Shown: positions 8,098 to 42,007 of the stretch, piece by piece
Layout of the letters: every line of letters begins with the position of its first letter
Numbering within the stretch: the stretch's first letter is position 1
Assembly (NCBI RefSeq): GCF_016862795.1
Contig: NZ_BONQ01000144.1
Location: 1 to 56,202, forward strand
DNA length: 56,202 nt
From: Dactylosporangium siamense
GTDB lineage: Bacteria; Actinomycetota; Actinomycetes; Mycobacteriales; Micromonosporaceae
Reading direction: 5' to 3'
Notes under the pieces: generated by a model
Database searches by the model: none
What the model saw: only the letters and a program-made list of their open reading frames with translations
What the model was told of the DNA's origin: nothing
Translations under genes and position numbers: made by a program

Positions 8098-9545
8098 CCG
8101 TCATCGGCGCCGGCGTCGGCGGCCTCGCCACGGCGGCCCGGCTCGCCGCCGCCGGCCACCGCGTCACCGTGTTCGAGCAGGCGGCCGCGGCGGGCGGCAA
8201 GCTCGGCCGGCACGAGCGGGTCACCACCGCCGGCACGTTCCGGTTCGACACCGGGCCCAGCCTGTTCACGCTGCCGCAGGTGGCCGCGGAGCTGTTCGCG
8301 CACACCGGCGGCCCCGCCCCCGAGCTGGATCTGGTCGCGTTGGATCCGCTGGTACGGCACTGCTTCCCCGACGGCACGACCCTGGACTCGTGTGCCGGGG
8401 CCGGCTTCGCCGACCGGATCGCGGCGGCGTTCGGCCCGGCGGCGGCCGAGGACTGGCGGCGGCTGTGGCGGCGCGCCGGCCGCGTCTGGGAGACCTCGTG
8501 GCGGCACGTCCTCACCGCCCCGGTGGACGGCCCGCTGCAGCTGGCCGGCCTGGCGTGGCGGCTGCGCGACCTGGCCGCGATCGCGCCCGGCCGGACGCTG
8601 CGCGGCCTGGGCCGCCGGCACCTGCGGGACCCCCGGCTGCGGATGCTCCTGGACCGTTACGCCACCTACACGGGCGCCGACCCGCGCCGGGCTCCGGCCG
8701 CGCTGCTCGCGATCCCCTACGCGGAGCTGGAGTTCGGCGGCTGGTACCTGCGCGGCGGCCTCGGCACCCTCGCCGACGCCCTCCTCAGCCGCTGCGCCGC
8801 GCTCGGCGTCACCGTCCACCTCGGCACAGCGGTCGGGTCCGTCCTCGTGGAGGGCTCCCGGGCCGCCGGGGTCGTCCTCGCCGACGGCACCGTGGTCCGG
8901 AGCGACCTGGTCGTCGCCAACGCCGACGCGCTGCACGTGTACCGCGACCTGCTGCCGGCACCACGCCGGGCGGCCGCCCTGGAGCAGCGCAGCCTCGGCG
9001 GGTTCGTCCTGCTGCTCGGGGTCCGCGGCGCGACCCCGAGGCTGGCGCACCACACGGTGTTCTTCCCACGGGACTACGACGCAGAGTTCGACGCGATCTT
9101 CGGCGCCCCGGCCCGCCCGCCGGACGACCCCGCGGTGTTCGTCACGTCGGCCGGCGACCCCAGCGCCCGCCCGGACGGCCACGAGGCATGGTTCGTCCTG
9201 GTCAACGCGCCGCCGCAGGGAGCCTTCGACTGGCGCGCGCCCGGCGTCGCCGAGGGCTACGCGGACCGGGTCCTCGCCGTGCTCGCCGACCGGGGGGTCG
9301 ACGTGCGGGACCGGCTGCTGTTCCGCGACGTGCTGACCCCCGCGGACCTGGAGACGGCGACCCGCTCCCCCGGCGGCGCGATCTACGGCACCGCCAGCCA
9401 CGGCCTCACCGGCCTGCTCCGGCCCCCGACCCGGGGCGCGGTCCGGGACCTGTTCCTGGTCGGCGGGTCCGTGCACCCCGGCGGTGGCCTGCCCCTGGTG
9501 ATGCTGTCCGCGAAGATCGTCGCCGATCGGATCGGCCCTGCGTAA
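8085..9545 (+). CDS. Phytoene desaturase-family carotenoid oxidoreductase
   Basis: A 486-residue FAD enzyme of the CrtI/CrtN/CrtD family. The N-terminal dinucleotide-binding motif (VIGAGVGGLATAARLAAAGH) and the C-terminal FAD motif (LFLVGGSVHPGGGLPLVMLSAK) are both intact. With a CruF-like hydratase and a CrtA-like monooxygenase in the same run, a CrtD-type 3,4-desaturation of a hydroxylated carotenoid is as likely as phytoene desaturation. The ATG at 8085 has GGAAGGGA upstream. This is the last gene of the overlapping run; no hairpin was seen in the 186-bp gap that follows. Confidence 0.87.
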   Translation: MATVTVIGAGVGGLATAARLAAAGHRVTVFEQAAAAGGKLGRHERVTTAGTFRFDTGPSLFTLPQVAAELFAHTGGPAPELDLVALDPLVRHCFPDGTTLDSCAGAGFADRIAAAFGPAAAEDWRRLWRRAGRVWETSWRHVLTAPVDGPLQLAGLAWRLRDLAAIAPGRTLRGLGRRHLRDPRLRMLLDRYATYTGADPRRAPAALLAIPYAELEFGGWYLRGGLGTLADALLSRCAALGVTVHLGTAVGSVLVEGSRAAGVVLADGTVVRSDLVVANADALHVYRDLLPAPRRAAALEQRSLGGFVLLLGVRGATPRLAHHTVFFPRDYDAEFDAIFGAPARPPDDPAVFVTSAGDPSARPDGHEAWFVLVNAPPQGAFDWRAPGVAEGYADRVLAVLADRGVDVRDRLLFRDVLTPADLETATRSPGGAIYGTASHGLTGLLRPPTRGAVRDLFLVGGSVHPGGGLPLVMLSAKIVADRIGPA

Positions 9546-9731
9546 GACCTCTGAACCCGTCCGCTGAGAGCAGCAGGATCGGCGCCGACACCACTCAGAT
9601 CGGACCGGTCGACGGCGGCTGACCGCTTTCAAGCAACCGTACACCAGCCCAAAAAACCGGACTCCGGAGCGTTACCAGCCATCACCTTTCGTAGTCTCGC
9701 GCGGGTCGCAGCACCCAGATCCTGCCCTGTT

Positions 9732-10421
9732 TCACGTTAATGCACGGCGAACGACGATCACCAACTGGACGAAGCCGACGGTGGTCAGAGCCGCCATAAC
9801 CACGAGTACGGCAAGGACTGTCACGTCCTGCCAGCCGCCCGCAACCGTGGCGCCCGCGACCGCGAGGAGCCCGAAGATCGTGACCAGCACCCGGGTGGGG
9901 CGCTCCGCGACCGTGACCGTGCCGATGTCGGACATGCCGGCGACGGTGGCTCTGGCCCGCACGTACTCGTGCAGCCACATCACGCCGCAGCACGCCGCGG
10001 CGAGCCAGGCCGGCCCGCCGAGGACGACCAGAGCCGCGAGCCAGGACGCCTCGGCGACGCGGTCGGCGGCGGAGTCGTAGACCTGGCCGAGGCGGCTCGC
10101 CCGGCCGGTGATCACCGCCAGGACGCCGTCGACGGTGTCCGCGACCGCCGACAGCAACACCAGCACCGCACCCGCGAGGGCCCAGCCGCGCCCGGCGACG
10201 ACGGCGAAGGGCACGGCCACGGACAGCAGCAGCCCCAGGACGGTGACGGTGTTCGGACTGCGGACACCGATGCGTGCGAGGGCGGCGCCCAGCGCGTACG
10301 ACCCGCGCAGCCAACCCCGCACGAGCGGCGGCGCGGACCTCGGGTCGTAGCCGCCGTGCGCCGCCGCCCACCGCTCGGCATAGGCGTCCCAGTCGCGGAC
10401 GTCAGACGCGGGCGGCGACAC
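9732..10421 (-). CDS. CDP-alcohol phosphatidyltransferase family protein
   Basis: A 229-residue membrane protein. The family signature runs from D95: D95-x2-D98-G99-x2-A102, then V103 where Arg is usual, x8, G112, x3, D116, x3, D120. All four metal-binding Asp are present, with the correct spacing. Members attach a phosphatidyl or similar group from a CDP-activated donor to an alcohol such as inositol phosphate or glycerol phosphate. The GTG at 10421 lies inside the end of metF (20-bp overlap), so the two are co-transcribed. The A-V variant makes the substrate class uncertain. Confidence 0.83.
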
Positions 10422-11319
10422 CGAGCTGCTGCCAGACCTCTCGCGTGGCCGTCGACCGGTTGAGCGTGATGAAGTGGATCCCTGGAATGCCCTCGCCGAG
10501 GAGCCGTTCGCACATCTCGCTGGCCAGGTCGATGCCGAGGCTCCGGACGGCTTGGGGGTCGTCGGCGACGGCCTCGAACCGCGCGGCGAGCGCCGGCGGG
10601 AACGGCGCACCCGACAGCTGCTGGGACCGGGCAATGGTGCCGATCGCCGTGACGGGCATGACCCCGGCGACGATCGGGGTGGCGCAGCCGGCCGCCGCGA
10701 CCCGGTCGCGCAGCCGCAGGTAGTCGTCGGCGTCGAAGAACATCTGGGTGATCGCGAAGTCGGCGCCGGCCCGGCATTTACGGACGAAGTTGGCGGTGTC
10801 GGACTCGATGTCCGCCGACCTCGGATGCTTGTACGGGAACGCCGCCACCCCGATGCTGAAGTCGCCGGATTCGCGGACGAGGCTTACCAGCTCCTCCGCG
10901 TAGAGCACGCCCTCCGGGTGCCGGACCCACTCCCCCATCGGGTCGCCGGGCGGGTCGCCGCGCACCAGCAGGAAGTTGCGGATGCCGGCGCCGGCCAGCT
11001 GGCCGATGACGTTGCGCAGCTCGGCGATGGAGTGGTTGACGGCGGTCAGGTGCGCCATCGGCAGCAGCGTCGTCTCCGTCGCCACCCGCTCCGTCACGGC
11101 GACGGTCGTGTCGCGGGTGGTGCCGCCGGCACCGTACGTGATGGAGACGAACGACGGCCGCAGCGGCTCCAGCTCCCGGATCGCCTGCCACAGCTGGCGC
11201 TCGCCCTCGGGCGTCTTCGGGGGGAAGAACTCGAAGGAGAACGTCGGGGCCGCCCCGGCGATCAGGTCGCCGATCGCCGCGGGTCCACCACCCATCACAG
11301 AAGGAAGTCCAGATGCCAC
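10402..11319 (-). CDS. 5,10-methylenetetrahydrofolate reductase
   Basis: A 305-residue TIM-barrel flavoenzyme that reduces methylene-THF to methyl-THF for methionine synthesis. Diagnostic segments are [18 protein letters not shown] near the N terminus with the catalytic Glu, [34 protein letters not shown], and [10 protein letters not shown] near the end. The GTG at 11319 is chosen because the residues after it (Ala-Ser-Gly-Leu-Pro-Ser) resemble the N terminus of related MetF proteins; ATG 11295 is the alternative. It corresponds in position to Rv2172c. Confidence 0.92.
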
Positions 11320-34173: not shown

Positions 34174-35463
34174 TCAGTGGTCGCCGCTGAGGTGCGCCAG
34201 CATGGCCTGGTTGGCCTCCCAGCCGTCGGGGAACCGGACCGGGACGTTGAGATGGACCGGCTCGGCGGACGGGTGGGTGTCGAGAAGCTCGGCGATGCCG
34301 GCCCTGGCCACGACCACGCACGCGTGCCGGTGCCGCGAGGCGAGCACGCACAGGCGGCCCGCTTCGAGGTGGAAGGCGCTCGCGTCGCGGCGGCCGGACA
34401 GCGGGTGCAGGATGACGGTGACGTCGTACTCGCGGCCCTGCAGGCGGTTCGCGGTGTCGACGGTGACGTCGGCGGCGACCGTGCCGGCCAGGGCCTGGCG
34501 GATCGCGGCGACCTGGTCGCGGTGCGCGGCGCCGACGGCGACCCGGTCGACGGTGACGGGCCGGCCGTCCGGGGCGTGCTCGGAGTAGGCGACCGGGCCG
34601 CGCTGCAGCAGCCGGGTCACCAGGTCGGCGATCGCGGCGACCGCCTCCCGGTCGGTGCGCACCGTGTGCCGGGCCGGCAGTTCGTGCAGCGCCCAGCCGG
34701 TGCGGCGGGCGGTCTCCAGGGTCGCGTCGAGGCCGTGATCGCCGCCGAGCGCCCGGGCGGAGAACTCCAGGCGCCGGTCCGCCGGTTTCGTGCCCGCCTC
34801 GAACGGGGTGAACGGGTAGAACGCCGCCGACACCACGGACGCGGCCGACGGTGGGAGGCGCCACGACACCGGCAGCCGGTGCACGGGCAGGTCCGGGTTG
34901 TGCCGCAGCAGCACCGCGACGGCGCTCTGCATCGGGTCCCAGGACAGGCCCGCCCAGCGTTCCACGGCCACGACCGAGAAGGGGTCGAGCTGGCCCGGGT
35001 CGCCGACGAACAGCGCGCGGGAGAACCGGCCGGCGACACGCAGCAGCATGTCGGAGCGCATCTGGTACGCCTCGTCGACGATCGCCCGCTCCCAGCTGCC
35101 GTCGGTGACGGTGGCCCACTTCGCGGCGGTGCCGATGGTGACGGCGCTGGCGTTCATGTCGCTGACGGCGCCGCTGACGGTGACGGTGCCGTGCTTGACG
35201 ACGCGCTGCGCCGGGACGTAGGTCGACGCGGACAGCCGGCCGATCGCGAGGTTGGGCGCGGCCGTCGCCAGCCGGTCGATGAGGTCGTCGACCTGCTCGT
35301 TGGTCTGCGCGACCACCATCAGCCGTTCGCCGGCCTCGGCGAGGGTACGGGCGGCGCGGACCACGAGGGTCGACTTGCCGGCGCCGGGCGGCGAGTCGAC
35401 GACGACGCCCCGACCGGCGGCGGAACCGAAGTCGCTGAGAATGGACTCGATCACACCGCTCAC
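34174..35463 (-). CDS. SF1B (Upf1/Dna2-like) DNA/RNA helicase, core only
   Basis: A 429-residue helicase reduced to the two RecA domains. Motif I SPPGAGKST (24-32), Ia AQTNEQVDD, II VDEAY (129-133), III VGDPGQLDPF (153-162), IV SWRLP, V DTANRLQGREYDVTVI (336-351), and VI ASRHRHA (375-381) are all visible. This set fits the Upf1/Dna2 branch of superfamily 1. The usual 1B beta-barrel insertion is absent; a candidate barrel is at the end of the protein encoded just upstream. It is the last gene of a four-gene unit with a Fe-S nuclease. Confidence 0.88.
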   Translation of the reverse strand: MSGVIESILSDFGSAAGRGVVVDSPPGAGKSTLVVRAARTLAEAGERLMVVAQTNEQVDDLIDRLATAAPNLAIGRLSASTYVPAQRVVKHGTVTVSGAVSDMNASAVTIGTAAKWATVTDGSWERAIVDEAYQMRSDMLLRVAGRFSRALFVGDPGQLDPFSVVAVERWAGLSWDPMQSAVAVLLRHNPDLPVHRLPVSWRLPPSAASVVSAAFYPFTPFEAGTKPADRRLEFSARALGGDHGLDATLETARRTGWALHELPARHTVRTDREAVAAIADLVTRLLQRGPVAYSEHAPDGRPVTVDRVAVGAAHRDQVAAIRQALAGTVAADVTVDTANRLQGREYDVTVILHPLSGRRDASAFHLEAGRLCVLASRHRHACVVVARAGIAELLDTHPSAEPVHLNVPVRFPDGWEANQAMLAHLSGDH

Positions 35464-35494
35464 GCCGTCACCTCCGCTGCGCTCCGCTGGCCGC

Positions 35495-36979
35495 TCACGA
35501 CCAATCCTCCACGGCGTCGTTGTCGCTCGCGTGATACTCGATGACCGGCGGCGGGCCGCCGTGCGTCCACGGGGTGTCGTCGCGGCTCGGGAAGCGGCCC
35601 GGCGGCTGGTAGGCGTCGGTGACCGGGCCGTACGTGACGCGGTCCCCCACCTCCGGCACCGACCCCGGCGCCGGTTGTTTCGTGGAGCGGCCCATGCCCT
35701 TGGACAGTTCGAGGACGACGTCCACGCTGGACACCGACACGACCGTCGCCTGCTGGGCGAGGCGGGCCGGGGACACCAGGTGCGCGCCCGGCTCCAGGCG
35801 CACCGGGTCGTCGGTCTGCACCGTGATGTGCGGGCGCAGCGCCGCCTTCTTGCCCGACGTGTCGACCCGGTTCGGCGACGCGGCGACGACGGTGCCGGTG
35901 AACGCCTCCCCCGACAGCCGGAACTCGGCCATCACGAGGGGGTCGTCGAGGGCCCGTTGCGCGTCGTAGCGGGCCTGTTCGCGTTCGAGCCGGTCGAGCC
36001 GGCCGGCGGCGGCGACGGCGCTGTCCCGCCGGGGCTGCGGCAGCGCGGTCCCCTCGGCCAGGGCCATGTGGTACATGGTGAACACGTCGCGGTCCATCGC
36101 CCAGCGGGTCTCGACGGACGCGCCGGCCGGCCGGGTCCGCAGCAACCGGACCGCCTGCCAGGTCAGGTCCCAGGTGGGCCGCATCTGGTCGGCGACGGCG
36201 GCGGTGAGCGCGGCGAGCGCCCGTTCGCGGGCGAAGTCGTCAATCGAGCGGGCGACGGCGGCCAGGGCCGGGGCGAGGATCTCGTTGTCGAAGGTCGGGT
36301 CGGTGCTCGGCCCGGCCGGCGGGGAACGCAGCGGGTCCTCGGCCAGGGCCGCGGCGCCGGCGCCGTCGAGGTCGCCGGGCGGGTCGATCCACCCGAGCAG
36401 CGCGGCGAGGTTGGCGTCCTCCAGGCCGCTCTGCCCGGTCGCCCAGTGCTCGCTGAGCACCGACGTCATGGCGAGCAGCATCGAGGAGCCGGGGTGGTCG
36501 GCGCGTTCCCGCAGGAACGTCAGCCACTGCCCGAGGATCGGCACGGTGCGGTGCACCGGGTACGGGCCGAACGGCCGGCGGAACCGGGTGGAGCGGCCCA
36601 GCAGCCGCACGAACTCGACGCCGCCCCGGTTCGGCACGATGACCTGGGGCGCTTCGGCGTAGCGTAGTTTCGTGCCACCGGCGCCGGTGTCGACGCTGCG
36701 GGCGCACCCGTCCACGTAGGACAGCACGACCCGGGCCAGCTCGGCGACGAAGTCGAAGCGCTGGGTGCGGTCGCGGGGGTTGGCCACGACGAGCAGCCGT
36801 GGCTCGCCGGGGTCGGTGCCGACGATCGCGGCCAGGGGCGCGGCGGCCTCACCGGCGAGGCTGAGCGGCACCAGGACCAGCGGCCGCTCGGCGACATGGG
36901 TGTGCCGGACCGTCGTCAGGGGCTGGGCTCTGCCCGACTCGACTGCCTCGGCCCGCGCCAGCGCGGTCAGGATGCTCAC
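35495..36979 (-). CDS. Helicase-associated protein with putative beta-barrel domain
   Basis: A 494-residue protein that I cannot assign to a named family. Residues 1-320 are mixed alpha/beta and helical. Residues about 320-345 form a charged helix, and about 355-430 a strand-rich stretch (FTGTVVAAS, RPHITVQTD, LEPGAHLVSP, ATVVSVSSVDVVLEL). That helix-then-barrel pattern resembles the stalk and 1B barrel of Upf1/Dna2 helicases, which the next gene lacks. It ends 31 bp before the helicase start. The function as a helicase subunit is inference. Confidence 0.72.
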   Translation of the reverse strand: MSILTALARAEAVESGRAQPLTTVRHTHVAERPLVLVPLSLAGEAAAPLAAIVGTDPGEPRLLVVANPRDRTQRFDFVAELARVVLSYVDGCARSVDTGAGGTKLRYAEAPQVIVPNRGGVEFVRLLGRSTRFRRPFGPYPVHRTVPILGQWLTFLRERADHPGSSMLLAMTSVLSEHWATGQSGLEDANLAALLGWIDPPGDLDGAGAAALAEDPLRSPPAGPSTDPTFDNEILAPALAAVARSIDDFARERALAALTAAVADQMRPTWDLTWQAVRLLRTRPAGASVETRWAMDRDVFTMYHMALAEGTALPQPRRDSAVAAAGRLDRLEREQARYDAQRALDDPLVMAEFRLSGEAFTGTVVAASPNRVDTSGKKAALRPHITVQTDDPVRLEPGAHLVSPARLAQQATVVSVSSVDVVLELSKGMGRSTKQPAPGSVPEVGDRVTYGPVTDAYQPPGRFPSRDDTPWTHGGPPPVIEYHASDNDAVEDWS

Positions 36980-37059
36980 GGCGCCGGCTCACTGCGCTCA
37001 CCGGCACCGCGAGGCACGAGGCGCTGCAACATGGTTCGCTCGCTCCGCTCACTCACGTG

Positions 37060-38187
37060 TCAGCCGATGCCGTCGAGGCACTCGGTGCGCAGCTTGTGCG
37101 CGAAGCGCAACAGGCCGGCGATCTCCTCCTGGCCGGCGCCCGGCGTCAGCGTCCCCCGGGCCAGCCCGAGGACGGTGCCGATGCTCTCCACGCCGCCGAG
37201 GTCGTCCCGGACCGACCGGCCGAGGGCGGACGTCGACCCGGCCGACTCGTCCCGGCAGAAGAACGCCATCTCGCACGTGCCGAGGCAGTCCGGGCTGTAC
37301 CGGGCGTCGATCGTGCTGACCGCCTTGCGCAGCTCGTCGGCGGGGCGGGTGGCCTGCTGGTCGCTGTCGTAGGCGAGGTCGAAGGACAGCCCCGCCGGCA
37401 GCGCGTCGAGGATCGACTCCAGGCGGGTGAGCCGGGACAGCTGCCGCCGCAGGACGGTCAGCTGCTTGCGCACGTCGACGAGGGTGGCGGTGGGCCGGTT
37501 GGCGAAGTTCTCCGGGCAGACGAGCACCACGTCGTGCGACACCGACTCCGGCGGGTGGCCGAGCTCGGCGAGCAGCTCGCGCATCGCCATGACGTACACC
37601 GCGGACTGGGTCGCGGCGGCGGCGGTCTTGCCCGGGTCGGCCTGACCGTCGATGACCGCGAACGACTTGATCTCCACGACGTGGAACTTGCCGCCGGCCC
37701 GGAACGCGATGAGGTCGGGCTCCAGGTACGCGTAGTAGCCCGCGATCTCCAGCCGCAGCATCGGGTGGTCGAAGAGCGTCCCCGCGTCGTCCCGCTCCGA
37801 CGCGGCCCGGGCGAGGAGCGCCTTCGTGCGGGCGTACCGGACCTCGCGGCTGGCGTTGCCGCCGACGTTGGACAGGTCGTCGTAGGCGACCTCGGGGATC
37901 GCCAGGCCGAGCCGGTCCCGCAGCAGCTGCAGCAGCTCGGCGGCGCCGTCGGCCTTCACCTGCGCCTCGAACGCGTTGCCGCGGGCGATCGCGAACCGGG
38001 ACTGGCCGAAGCCGGCGGGGAAGCCGAGCTGCCCGGCGACGGCGCCCTTGTTGACCCCGGCGGCGTCCATCAGCCCACGGCGGCCGCACCCGGGGTTGCT
38101 GGTGAGGGCCGCGATGGTGCGCGCGTTGTGGTTGCGCGGCGCCACCGTGCCGCGGATGCGGTCCAACCGGTCGACCAGTGGGTCCAT
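37060..38187 (-). CDS. RecB/Cas4-type PD-(D/E)XK nuclease with 4-Cys Fe-S site
   Basis: A 375-residue nuclease. C34 lies in NPGCGRRGLM, the Cys-x-Arg-Arg pattern at the front of Cas4, AddB and Dna2 nucleases. Active-site motifs follow: RGNAFE (69-74), D158 in EPDLIAF, E172-I-K174 in VVEIKSF, and Q194-x3-Y198. Near the end C301, C305 and C311 complete the likely 4Fe-4S ligands, with C-x3-C instead of the common C-x2-C. It should cut or resect DNA ends. ATG 38187 is 34 bp after the upstream gene; 80 bp separate it from the next. Confidence 0.87.
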   Translation of the reverse strand: MDPLVDRLDRIRGTVAPRNHNARTIAALTSNPGCGRRGLMDAAGVNKGAVAGQLGFPAGFGQSRFAIARGNAFEAQVKADGAAELLQLLRDRLGLAIPEVAYDDLSNVGGNASREVRYARTKALLARAASERDDAGTLFDHPMLRLEIAGYYAYLEPDLIAFRAGGKFHVVEIKSFAVIDGQADPGKTAAAATQSAVYVMAMRELLAELGHPPESVSHDVVLVCPENFANRPTATLVDVRKQLTVLRRQLSRLTRLESILDALPAGLSFDLAYDSDQQATRPADELRKAVSTIDARYSPDCLGTCEMAFFCRDESAGSTSALGRSVRDDLGGVESIGTVLGLARGTLTPGAGQEEIAGLLRFAHKLRTECLDGIG

Positions 38188-38221
38188 GAGCGGTCTTCTT
38201 TCGGGGAAGAATTTCGCGGTT

Positions 38222-39016
38222 TCACGTCGTGCTCGCGGTACGACGCAGTCGTTGCAGACGGGCTCCGAAGAGCGCTTCGGATCCGTCCAGGCGTTCCTGG
38301 GCCCGACTGGCCGCAGCGGTGCGGTCCGCGGTGTCGGCCTCGAGGTGCACGTCGAGCTCGGCCTGGGCCAGTTCGGCCACGGACGAGGGGGTGATCCCCG
38401 CACTGCCGGCACCGGGGATGCTCGCGGCGAACCGCCACAGCAGCCGCTGGGCGTCGTGCGCGTCCTCGGGCAGCTGCGCCACCCGCTGGGCCACCTTGAT
38501 CGCGCCGATGAGGAAGTCGACGCGGGCGCTGAGCGGTCCGACGACCCTGATCTCCAGGGGCCAGGTGGACAACGCCAGGAGCCCGCGCGCCGGGGACAGC
38601 AGGTCGGCGGTGAGCGCGGGGCACAGGTAGTACGGCCGGCCGAACGGCTGGACGCGGAACGAGCGTTCCTCGTCGCGGCGCAGGCTGGTGAGGCGCGCCG
38701 CGACCAGTTCGCCCGGGAAGAAGGCGTCGTGGACGGCGATGATGAGCTTCGGCGCGGCCGGCACCGTGAGCAGGGTCAGCGCGTGGTGCACCTGCTCACG
38801 GATCGACAGCATCGGCTTGTGCACCGGCTGCGGCGCCGGCCGGGCCTGGTCCTCCAGGTCGGCGAGGGCGTCGTCCCAGGCGTGCTCCGCCTGGCGCAGC
38901 TCGGCCCGGAGTGCTCGGGCCATGGTCCGGTCACCGGTGGTGGCGGCCCGTCGCAGCTCGCCACGCAACCGGTCGATCCGCCGCTCGAGCAGCTCGATGT
39001 GGATCGGTTCGGACAC
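38222..39016 (-). CDS. Unknown protein leading the helicase-nuclease operon
   Basis: A 264-residue protein with no family I recognise. Residues 1-58 form a charged coiled coil (LLERRIDRLRGELRRAATTGDR onward, in heptads). Residues about 68-130 may form a winged helix (SIREQVHHALTLL then AARLTSLRRDEERSF). The C-terminal part is helical. The GTG at 39016 follows a TACCGT -10-like box; two direct TTCCAGCAA copies lie just upstream at about 39035-39056. As first gene of the unit it may recognise DNA or organise the complex. Confidence 0.68.
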   Translation of the reverse strand: MSEPIHIELLERRIDRLRGELRRAATTGDRTMARALRAELRQAEHAWDDALADLEDQARPAPQPVHKPMLSIREQVHHALTLLTVPAAPKLIIAVHDAFFPGELVAARLTSLRRDEERSFRVQPFGRPYYLCPALTADLLSPARGLLALSTWPLEIRVVGPLSARVDFLIGAIKVAQRVAQLPEDAHDAQRLLWRFAASIPGAGSAGITPSSVAELAQAELDVHLEADTADRTAAASRAQERLDGSEALFGARLQRLRRTASTT

Positions 39017-39126
39017 GAACGGCACGGTAGCCGGTTCCAGCAAGTTCCAGCAAAGACCAGTGTCGGCGTGTCGTGTTGCAACTTGCGCTGAAACGGTTCG
39101 CCACTGCTCCTCGATGCGCCGTCGTT

Positions 39127-40819: not shown

Positions 40820-42007
40820 TTAGTCGAGGAGTTCCGTGACCGTGCCGGCGGCGACGGTGCGACCACCCTCGCGGACGGCGAACCCGAGGCCTTCGGCCAT
40901 GGCGACCGGCTTGCCCAGTTCGACCGTCAGGTCGACGGTGTCGCCGGGCATGACCATCGTGACCTCGCCCAGGTCGACCGACCCGACCACGTCCGTGGTC
41001 CGGAAGAAGAACTGCGGCCGGTAGTTGGCGAAGAACGGCGTGTGCCGGCCTCCTTCCTTCGTGGTGAGCGCGTACACGTGGGCGGTGAACCGGCGGTGCG
41101 GCGAGACCGACCCCGGCAGCGCGACGACCTGGCCCCGCTGCACGTCGCCGCGGCGGATGCCGCGCAGCAGCAGCGCCGCGTTGTCGCCCGCCTCGGCCTG
41201 CTCGAGCTGCCGGCCGAACGTCTCCAGGCCGGTCACCACGCTGGACCGGGTGGGGCCCAGCCCGACGACCTCGACCGGGGCGTTGAGCCGCAGCGTGCCG
41301 CGCTCGACCGCGCCGGTGACGACGGTGCCACGCCCGGTGATCGTGAGCACGTTCTCGATCGGCATCAGGAACGGCTCGGCGAGCACCCGGTCGGGCACCG
41401 GGACATACCGGTCGACCGCGTCGAGCAGGTCGAGCACCGACCGCACGCCGGCCGGGTCGCCCTTGAGCGCCCGCAGCGCGGACACCCGGACGACCGGCAC
41501 GTCGTCACCGGGGAACCCGTAGCCGCTGAGCAGCTCGCGGATCTCCAGCTCGATGAGGTCGAGCAGCTCGGCGTCGTCGACCGCGTCGGCCTTGTTCATC
41601 GCCACGACCAGGTGGGGCACGCCGATGCGCCGCGCGAGCAGGACGTGCTCGCGCGTCTGCGGCATGACCCCGTCGACCGCGCTGACCACCAGGATCGCAC
41701 CGTCGACCTGGGCCGCACCGGTGATCATGTTCTTCACGTAGTCGGCGTGGCCGGGCATGTCGACGTGGGCGTAGTGCCTGGTCGCGGTCTCGTACTCGAC
41801 GTGGGCGATGTTGATGGTGATGCCCCGGCTGATCTCCTCCGGCGCCCGGTCGATCCCCTCGAACGAGGTGTACCGGTTGACGGTCGGGTAGCGCTCGGCG
41901 AGCACCTTGGTGATCGCGGCGGTCAGGGTCGTCTTGCCGTGGTCGACGTGACCCATGGTGCCGATGTTGAGGTGGGGTTTGTTCCTCGTGAACGTCTGCT
42001 TGGCCAT
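40820..42007 (-). CDS. Elongation factor Tu paralogue
   Basis: A 395-residue EF-Tu. GTPase motifs are GHVDHGKT (19-26), RGITI (61-65), DMPGH (83-87) and NKAD (138-141). Canonical bacterial EF-Tu reads DCPGH and NKCD, so both Cys are replaced (Met, Ala). Domains 2 and 3 are full length, ending in [16 protein letters not shown]. The gene stands alone, not beside fusA and rpsG, and so is probably a second copy like the divergent tuf genes of Streptomyces. GTP-dependent delivery of aminoacyl-tRNA is expected. It has its own promoter and a leader of about 200 bases. Confidence 0.92.

Follow-up and report, generated by a model that had tools for sequence, protein, structure and literature searches.

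The four-gene operon

The DNA under study (hereafter the window) is a stretch of 56,202 nucleotides (nt) from Dactylosporangium siamense (contig NZ_BONQ01000144.1 of assembly GCF_016862795.1, positions 1 to 56,202), in which four genes on the minus strand, named here CC, NUC, BAR and HEL in transcription order, form an operon at positions 34174..39016. CC (39016-38222, 264 residues) encodes a proposed DNA-binding regulator and is followed by NUC (38187-37060, 375 residues), encoding a predicted RecB/Cas4-type PD-(D/E)XK nuclease with a four-cysteine Fe-S (iron-staple) pattern, by BAR (36979-35495, 494 residues), whose product is predicted to combine a DnaQ-like fold, stalk helices and a UPF1/Dna2-type 1B barrel, and by HEL (35463-34174, 429 residues), encoding a bare SF1B (UPF1/Dna2-like) helicase core. 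A first-pass annotation made from the letters alone had reported four open reading frames within these limits, and all were found with the lengths and spacings given there, the intergenic gaps being 34 base pairs (bp) between CC and NUC, 80 bp between NUC and BAR and 31 bp between BAR and HEL. Related operons are often more compact, and many loci show NUC-BAR and BAR-HEL overlaps of between 4 and 11 bp. The closest named relatives are Dactylosporangium proteins (93% identity for BAR and 98% for NUC), and no paper on this operon was found among the titles and opening lines of abstracts in open-access PMC.

Predicted properties of the encoded proteins

HEL scores above the Pfam thresholds of AAA_12, AAA_30 and AAA_11, and the residues of its motifs show little or no variation across 119 aligned rows, two N-terminal gaps excepted. 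When a profile of 13 HEL members was compared with solved structures, DNA2 (5eaw) ranked first (E 2.7e-16), followed by IGHMBP2 and UPF1. Since only 24 residues precede motif I, too few to accommodate a stalk and barrel there, both the Pfam matches and this short N-terminus agree with the earlier description of a bare SF1B core without the barrel. A weak match of HEL to the PDB entry 9kwf was also recorded.

A barrel is predicted in the product of the preceding gene. The AlphaFold model of BAR (predicted local distance difference test, pLDDT, 91.5) displays a C-terminal stalk and 1B barrel (residues ~349-453) closest to that of IGHMBP2, with fold matches also to the barrel and stalk of Senataxin and Sen1, and in a model-based fold comparison the barrel of DNA2 (5eaw) superposes on it with 2.5 Å over 89 residues. 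The stalk and barrel announced for the 494-residue protein are thus present in the model; what had been missed is the front half (~31-300), which is, according to the model, a degenerate DnaQ-like fold. The DnaQ/RNase H-like fold of a DEDD exonuclease is predicted, and the acidic residues are missing from its exo I motif and uncommon in exo II: none of 123 rows has an acid at the exo I positions 37 and 39 (each with 4 gaps), whereas glutamate or aspartate occupies the exo II position 122 in 27 of the 123, all three positions having been inferred from aligned ranges only.

In an alignment of 121 NUC rows (119 distinct sequences), C301, C305 and C311 are present in every row and C34 in 117, the other four having gaps, and the putative catalytic residues E74, D158, E172, K174 and Q194 are kept in 115, 119, 116, 114 and 119 rows, respectively. 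These residues fit the RecB-family signature together with the four-cysteine iron-staple pattern described for AddB, DNA2 and Cas4 in the consulted part of PMC7430649, the comparison being by residues and not by exact spacing, and the first-pass assignment of NUC to the RecB/Cas4-type nucleases is upheld by their conservation in 114 to 121 of the 121 rows. Exceptions to the conserved active site do occur: K174 is lost in L032 and L033 (the truncated L080 set aside), and both E172 and K174 are lost in L193, L194, L200 and L201, accessory copies discussed below, which read VVLIRSF at this site.

The AlphaFold model of CC (pLDDT 89.2) consists of a helical hairpin (3-58), three helices (72-122) and a beta-hairpin (131-149). 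From the order of these secondary-structure elements we propose that CC is winged-helix-like; fold searches matched the helical hairpin alone and did not confirm a winged helix. Database searches with CC, NUC and BAR returned little. Against Pfam and NCBIfam, CC gave weak matches below the cut-offs and NUC none at E<=1; BAR had one chance match in NCBIfam (E 0.088). Profiles compared with solved structures produced chance matches only, with best E-values of 0.084 for CC, 0.11 for NUC and 2 for BAR, and a single-sequence search of the PDB with NUC gave no match at E<=1. As for membership in a known antiphage system, none of these three proteins matched PADLOC-DB 2.0.0 at E<=1, nor did any of 13 diverse NUC members, and HEL showed partial helicase matches only (best MkoA, E 8.1e-13).

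Co-occurrence and gene order

Among 216 genomes sampled across the phylum, NUC, BAR (both at E<=0.001) and HEL (at E<=1e-20) were each found in 11, and the 11 are identical; in one of them (G009) NUC adjoins BAR and HEL is some 36 kb distant. With the window protein as the only query, CC was found in 3 genomes of this sample. Using BAR as the anchor, a scan across named genomes yielded at least 586 relatives, of which 80 loci were kept, and in 72 of these the order CC-NUC-BAR-HEL is maintained on one strand, HEL standing 1-2.4 kb further on in four (L066, L068, L073 and L110). The other eight comprise five loci with NUC-BAR-HEL and no CC, one with BAR-HEL, one with HEL inverted and one without HEL in the stretch, and some of the incomplete loci sit at contig ends. 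Both the shared 11 genomes and the 72 ordered loci show that the four genes travel together, as anticipated from the window. Likewise, in a comparison of 114 loci that had no control gene, the correlation of pairwise distances was 0.946-0.958 among NUC, BAR and HEL and 0.86-0.90 between CC and these three.

Within the class, BAR is present in 58 of 296 genomes and in 14 of 106 genera. In Streptomyces, NUC is found in 117 of 121 genomes; to this genus belongs genome G063, whose BAR is 100% identical to a protein of Streptomyces achromogenes. Seven Streptomyces loci (L043-L049) share their flanks, and no CC was called in them. An origin from phages was considered and rejected, as a tblastn search of 50,697 phage records detected no relatives of either BAR or NUC.

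Sequences upstream of the operon

Upstream of CC in the window, direct repeats with a 10-bp pitch (39035..39060, minus strand) constitute a proposed operator, whose units on that strand are a degenerate CTGGTC (39060-39055) and two copies of CTGGAA (39050-39045 and 39040-39035). They are followed by a proposed -10 element, TACCGT (39024..39029, minus strand), placed 7 nt before the GTG start in the manner of a leaderless-type promoter. In a word search CTGGAA was over-represented upstream of the first gene of the operon, and pairs spaced by exactly 10 bp numbered 52 in 121 operon upstreams and none in 1225 controls. Allowing up to two mismatches, CTGGAAN4CTGGAA was found in 85 of 99 upstreams in which CC is the first gene, in none of 22 in which NUC is first, and in 8 of the 1225 controls (84/97, 0/22 and 8/1212 after removal of duplicates), and with three mismatches the same sets gave 89, 3 and 108. 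L042, L061, L079, L189, L190, L192 and L195 are among the 14 CC-first loci without the pair, and the NUC-first set includes contig-end loci as well as copies whose CC may have been missed. A TANNNT element followed after 5-8 nt by A/GTG is present in 84 of the 85 repeat-bearing upstreams (2.9% in shuffled sequence), and at the called start TANNNT was found in 79 of 97 CC-first loci versus 141 of 1130 controls; it mostly stands 4-8, 17 or 27 nt past the CTGGAA pair, that is, in steps of one helical turn. Because the exact pair occurs only 4 times in the whole genome of the window, against 2 for the reversed control, it looks like a local operator, and since the repeats are limited to CC-bearing operons we infer, from counts over related and hence non-independent loci, that CC may be their reader.

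A different element precedes the CC-less Streptomyces operons, in which TTGTCAGTG stands directly before NUC in L043-L049, L049 having TTGTCAGCG. The exact -35 part is present in 6 of these seven loci, and a pattern of the TTGTCAGTG type was found in 6 of the first 121 operon upstreams and in 5 of 1225 controls. When 40 further Streptomyces upstreams (L210-L249), hand-picked from the 117 genomes, were added, the box upstream of NUC in both sets took the general form TTGTCAGTG-N8-NAGACT, with the start codon 7 nt after the -10 in the printed Streptomyces loci. This arrangement resembles the LexA/RecA-independent P1 promoter, whose consensus is given in PMC5656591, as far as consulted, as tTGTCRgtg - 8 nt - TannnT and at which PafBC is described to act in Mycobacterium smegmatis. 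The exact -35 part, TTGTCRGTG, occurs in 34 of the 40 Streptomyces upstreams (411 nt each), in 11 of the 1225 controls (310 nt each) and in none of the 99 CC-first upstreams, so that the PafBC/P1-like box is absent from the type to which the window itself belongs. For the full box (-35, 8-nt spacer, TANNNT) the counts in the 40 upstreams and 1225 controls were 34 and 8 with at most one mismatch, 39 and 25 with at most two, and 0 and 4 without any; the position that deviates is the initial T of the -10 (CAGACT, AAGACT or GAGACT). A scan of the operon upstreams for SOS boxes revealed no enrichment. The Streptomyces box may represent a PafBC-type promoter with an altered -10, in which case the core operon would be inducible by DNA damage.

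Accessory copies and their neighbors

Besides the core copy, we followed 15 accessory copies, namely 13 second copies (L189-L201) and two plasmid records (L203 and L204); a 40-residue match in G585, the fragment L202, L042 and L205 were left out. In 11 of the 15, genes for SbcD and/or SbcC adjoin the operon (broken in L198 and L204), L189 and L190 among them being two ends of one genome (G573), while in the earlier loci relatives of SbcCD were seen only in L031, L042 and L079. Wadjet genes lie directly downstream of HEL in L197, L203 and L204, and SbcCD is there divergent and upstream of CC (broken in L204). The remaining four copies (L193, L194, L200 and L201) carry genes of 546, 391 and ~1127 residues beside CC, identified as pPIWI-RE components by a scan in L193 and assigned by size and order in the other three. 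These observations argue that in accessory copies of Streptomyces the module, alongside SbcCD, has also been recruited to DNA-targeting defence.

Several further features of these copies were noted. In the copies where NUC has lost E and K, CC has as its neighbor a separate PD-(D/E)XK protein belonging to the pPIWI-RE set (scanned in L193). L189 and L190 occupy opposite ends of a 10.7-Mb contig, each some 20 kb from the terminus, and L191 is no more than 6 kb from an end; in L189 and L190 the operon and SbcCD, with identical core proteins, are arranged as in terminal inverted repeats. Large genes are found downstream of HEL in L192 (13445-16594) and L194 (13235-16411), one of them without a Pfam or PADLOC match and the other encoding an SNF2-type helicase that resembles defence helicases. 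L205 (NZ_LT559118.1) is an 11.85-Mb Nonomuraea replicon filed among plasmids and probably a chromosome, in which no SbcCD or Wadjet matches were found.

Comparison with known helicase-nucleases

The IGHMBP2, UPF1 and Senataxin helicases resemble HEL in their core, and IGHMBP2, Senataxin and Sen1 resemble BAR in the 1B barrel and stalk, but in these enzymes barrel and core share one chain and, to our knowledge, no nuclease is carried. We likewise know of no DnaQ-like domain in Dna2, and eukaryotic DNA2 differs further from the operon in being a single chain without a CC protein. Nevertheless, a RecB-family nuclease with the four-cysteine pattern, a stalk and 1B barrel ahead of the helicase core and an SF1B core are all predicted here from sequences and models, in line with the first-pass suggestion of a Dna2 order spread over separate genes. 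Eukaryotic DNA2 (5eaw) likewise runs from an Fe-S nuclease through a 1B barrel to an SF1B helicase, an order described in PMC7430649. In the window and in the loci examined for gene order the modules lie on separate genes, and the only fusion joins NUC to BAR, once: L034 encodes, in one frame of 745 residues (8362-10599), a NUC remnant followed by BAR, in Dna2 order. The remnant, which is outside the 121 rows, has a degenerate nuclease site with VAVRTY instead of VEIKSF.

According to PMC7430649, Dna2-like enzymes of bacteria are rare, consist of one chain and have no known role. The one treated there, Bad of Geobacillus stearothermophilus, is presented as a DNA2-like helicase-nuclease with a central domain of unknown fold that is absent from eukaryotic DNA2, and a second class is noted in Mycobacteria and Rhodococcus. 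By description, Bad and the operon share an iron-staple RecB-family nuclease followed by an SF1B helicase, together with a central domain that eukaryotic DNA2 lacks (PMC7430649); they differ in that Bad is one chain in place of three or four genes, whereas the central protein here has a predicted DnaQ-like fold and barrel, and the operon adds a regulator-like protein and an operator.

The DnaQ-like front half of BAR brings the layout nearer to actinomycete fusions of a TIGR03491 (TM0106 family RecB-like) nuclease, RNase_H_2 and an SF1B helicase, of which 15 single chains of 1092-1224 residues, out of 20 loci fetched, were aligned (alignment A9; the other five were left out). The order nuclease, RNase H/DnaQ-type domain, helicase was seen in 3 of the 15, those scanned, and HEL aligns to the helicase part of the aligned set with E 5.7e-29. 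In contrast to the operon, the fusions are single chains, and D322 and E324, which fit the exo I DxE motif, are invariant in the 15 rows. Alignments by hhalign were not significant for NUC (E 0.27, Cys-cluster region only) or BAR (E 0.26-0.78), and the curated TIGR03491 model matched none of CC, NUC, BAR and HEL at E<=1. The second class of PMC7430649 may, from what is said of it in the part consulted, correspond to these fusions. TIGR03491 (over cut-off) and BAR occur together in 3 of 296 genomes, against an expectation of 20 (Fisher p 1e-8), but by genus 3 are shared and 5.3 expected (14 and 40 of 106 genera, p 0.24); a mutual exclusion, strong by genome and not significant by genus, was not retained, as phylogeny alone may account for it. 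An apparent TIGR03491-plus-helicase gene pair in L184 proved wrong, the second gene being HtpG.

Proposed function and alternatives

These parts and their order point to a Dna2-type helicase-nuclease built from subunits that BAR would bridge. We accordingly regard it as reasonably probable that the product of the operon is a bacterial helicase-nuclease of the Dna2 kind, made of several subunits, which processes DNA ends and has also been recruited to defence. NUC, BAR and HEL would then form one machine, in which BAR supplies in trans the barrel that HEL lacks and bridges HEL to NUC, HEL, starting at a free end, travels 5'-to-3' along single-stranded DNA, and NUC cuts the strand fed to it. The DnaQ-like domain of BAR, probably inactive, could serve as a scaffold or single-strand holder, and CC would bind the CTGGAA repeats and thereby autoregulate the operon. 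As the core-genome status in Streptomyces and the damage-type box point to genome maintenance, a repair role is favored for the core copy, which would process DNA ends or flaps, and those accessory copies that neighbor SbcCD, Wadjet or pPIWI-RE may contribute to DNA-targeting defence or to the care of linear replicons. The first-pass proposal of a role in repair or phage defence might thus be narrowed to repair for the core copy, and its defence part finds a counterpart in the accessory copies, the window flanks being without a PADLOC match.

Several other explanations were weighed. That the operon is chiefly an antiphage or anti-plasmid system, spread among actinomycetes and fixed in Streptomyces, would account for the copies beside Wadjet (L197, L203 and L204) and pPIWI-RE genes and for those on plasmids and near contig ends (L189-L191), but we consider it unlikely in view of the presence of the main copy in nearly all Streptomyces genomes, its constant flanks in seven loci, the DNA-damage-type box before it and the lack of relatives of BAR or NUC in the phage records searched; moreover, a PADLOC scan of the nine window genes flanking the operon gave no match at E<=0.001. 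A single machine might also be an illusion, HEL and BAR acting on RNA or DNA in the manner of the UPF1/IGHMBP2 helicases and NUC apart from them. The barrel of BAR does match IGHMBP2 best, some copies lose nuclease residues yet keep HEL, and in G009 NUC is with BAR, away from HEL; this last arrangement, however, cuts both ways, since NUC and BAR remain neighbors where HEL has been relocated, and it is NUC-BAR, not BAR-HEL, that is fused in L034. With DNA2 as the best PDB relative of HEL, we give this explanation little credence. Even less probable is a second, active exonuclease in the DnaQ-like half of BAR with shifted catalytic residues, which the missing exo I acids and the scarcity of an exo II acid speak against.

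The Dna2-type helicase-nuclease can be extended to a wider proposal, which we advance tentatively and hold to be possible rather than probable: an actinomycete multi-subunit Dna2-type resection machine whose Streptomyces core copy would belong to a PafBC-type LexA-independent response and which elsewhere would be autoregulated by its own DNA-binding subunit through helically phased repeats, replacing the single-chain fusion of relatives, with accessory copies paired with SbcCD (the bacterial Mre11-Rad50) in a mirror of MRN-DNA2 and serving as a processing module of Wadjet or pPIWI-RE defence. With a multi-gene Dna2-like form that is core in Streptomyces, the role of such enzymes can be studied in a convenient host, and its separate genes allow nuclease, barrel and motor to be removed singly. 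For Streptomyces venezuelae, an initial motif search is reported to have suggested no conservation, and the question of a LexA-independent DNA-damage response is left open in the part of PMC9380542 consulted; the PafBC-like box makes that question directly testable. The accessory copies near SbcCD and DNA-targeting defence genes, in turn, join the question of bacterial end resection to that of defence.

Neighborhood of the operon in the window

The genes beside the operon in the window are the same neighbors as at other Dactylosporangium loci, an acyltransferase gene adjoining CC being common to seven of them (L052 and L060 representing one genome), and this sharing does not suggest a fresh insertion. 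The first-pass claim of an inserted module is not supported, given these retained neighbors, the genus-specific flanks and the presence of NUC in 117 of the 121 Streptomyces genomes, and a fresh insertion was rejected. Genes other than the four were called by a home-made codon-model caller, and their start positions may be off. A scan of the window for sigma-70 promoters and terminators found none. Two window proteins match the PASTA-kinase and Rv2179c-like families, and a protein of the EF-Tu family (395 residues, 40820-42007) is encoded near the operon, as it is in other Dactylosporangium loci.

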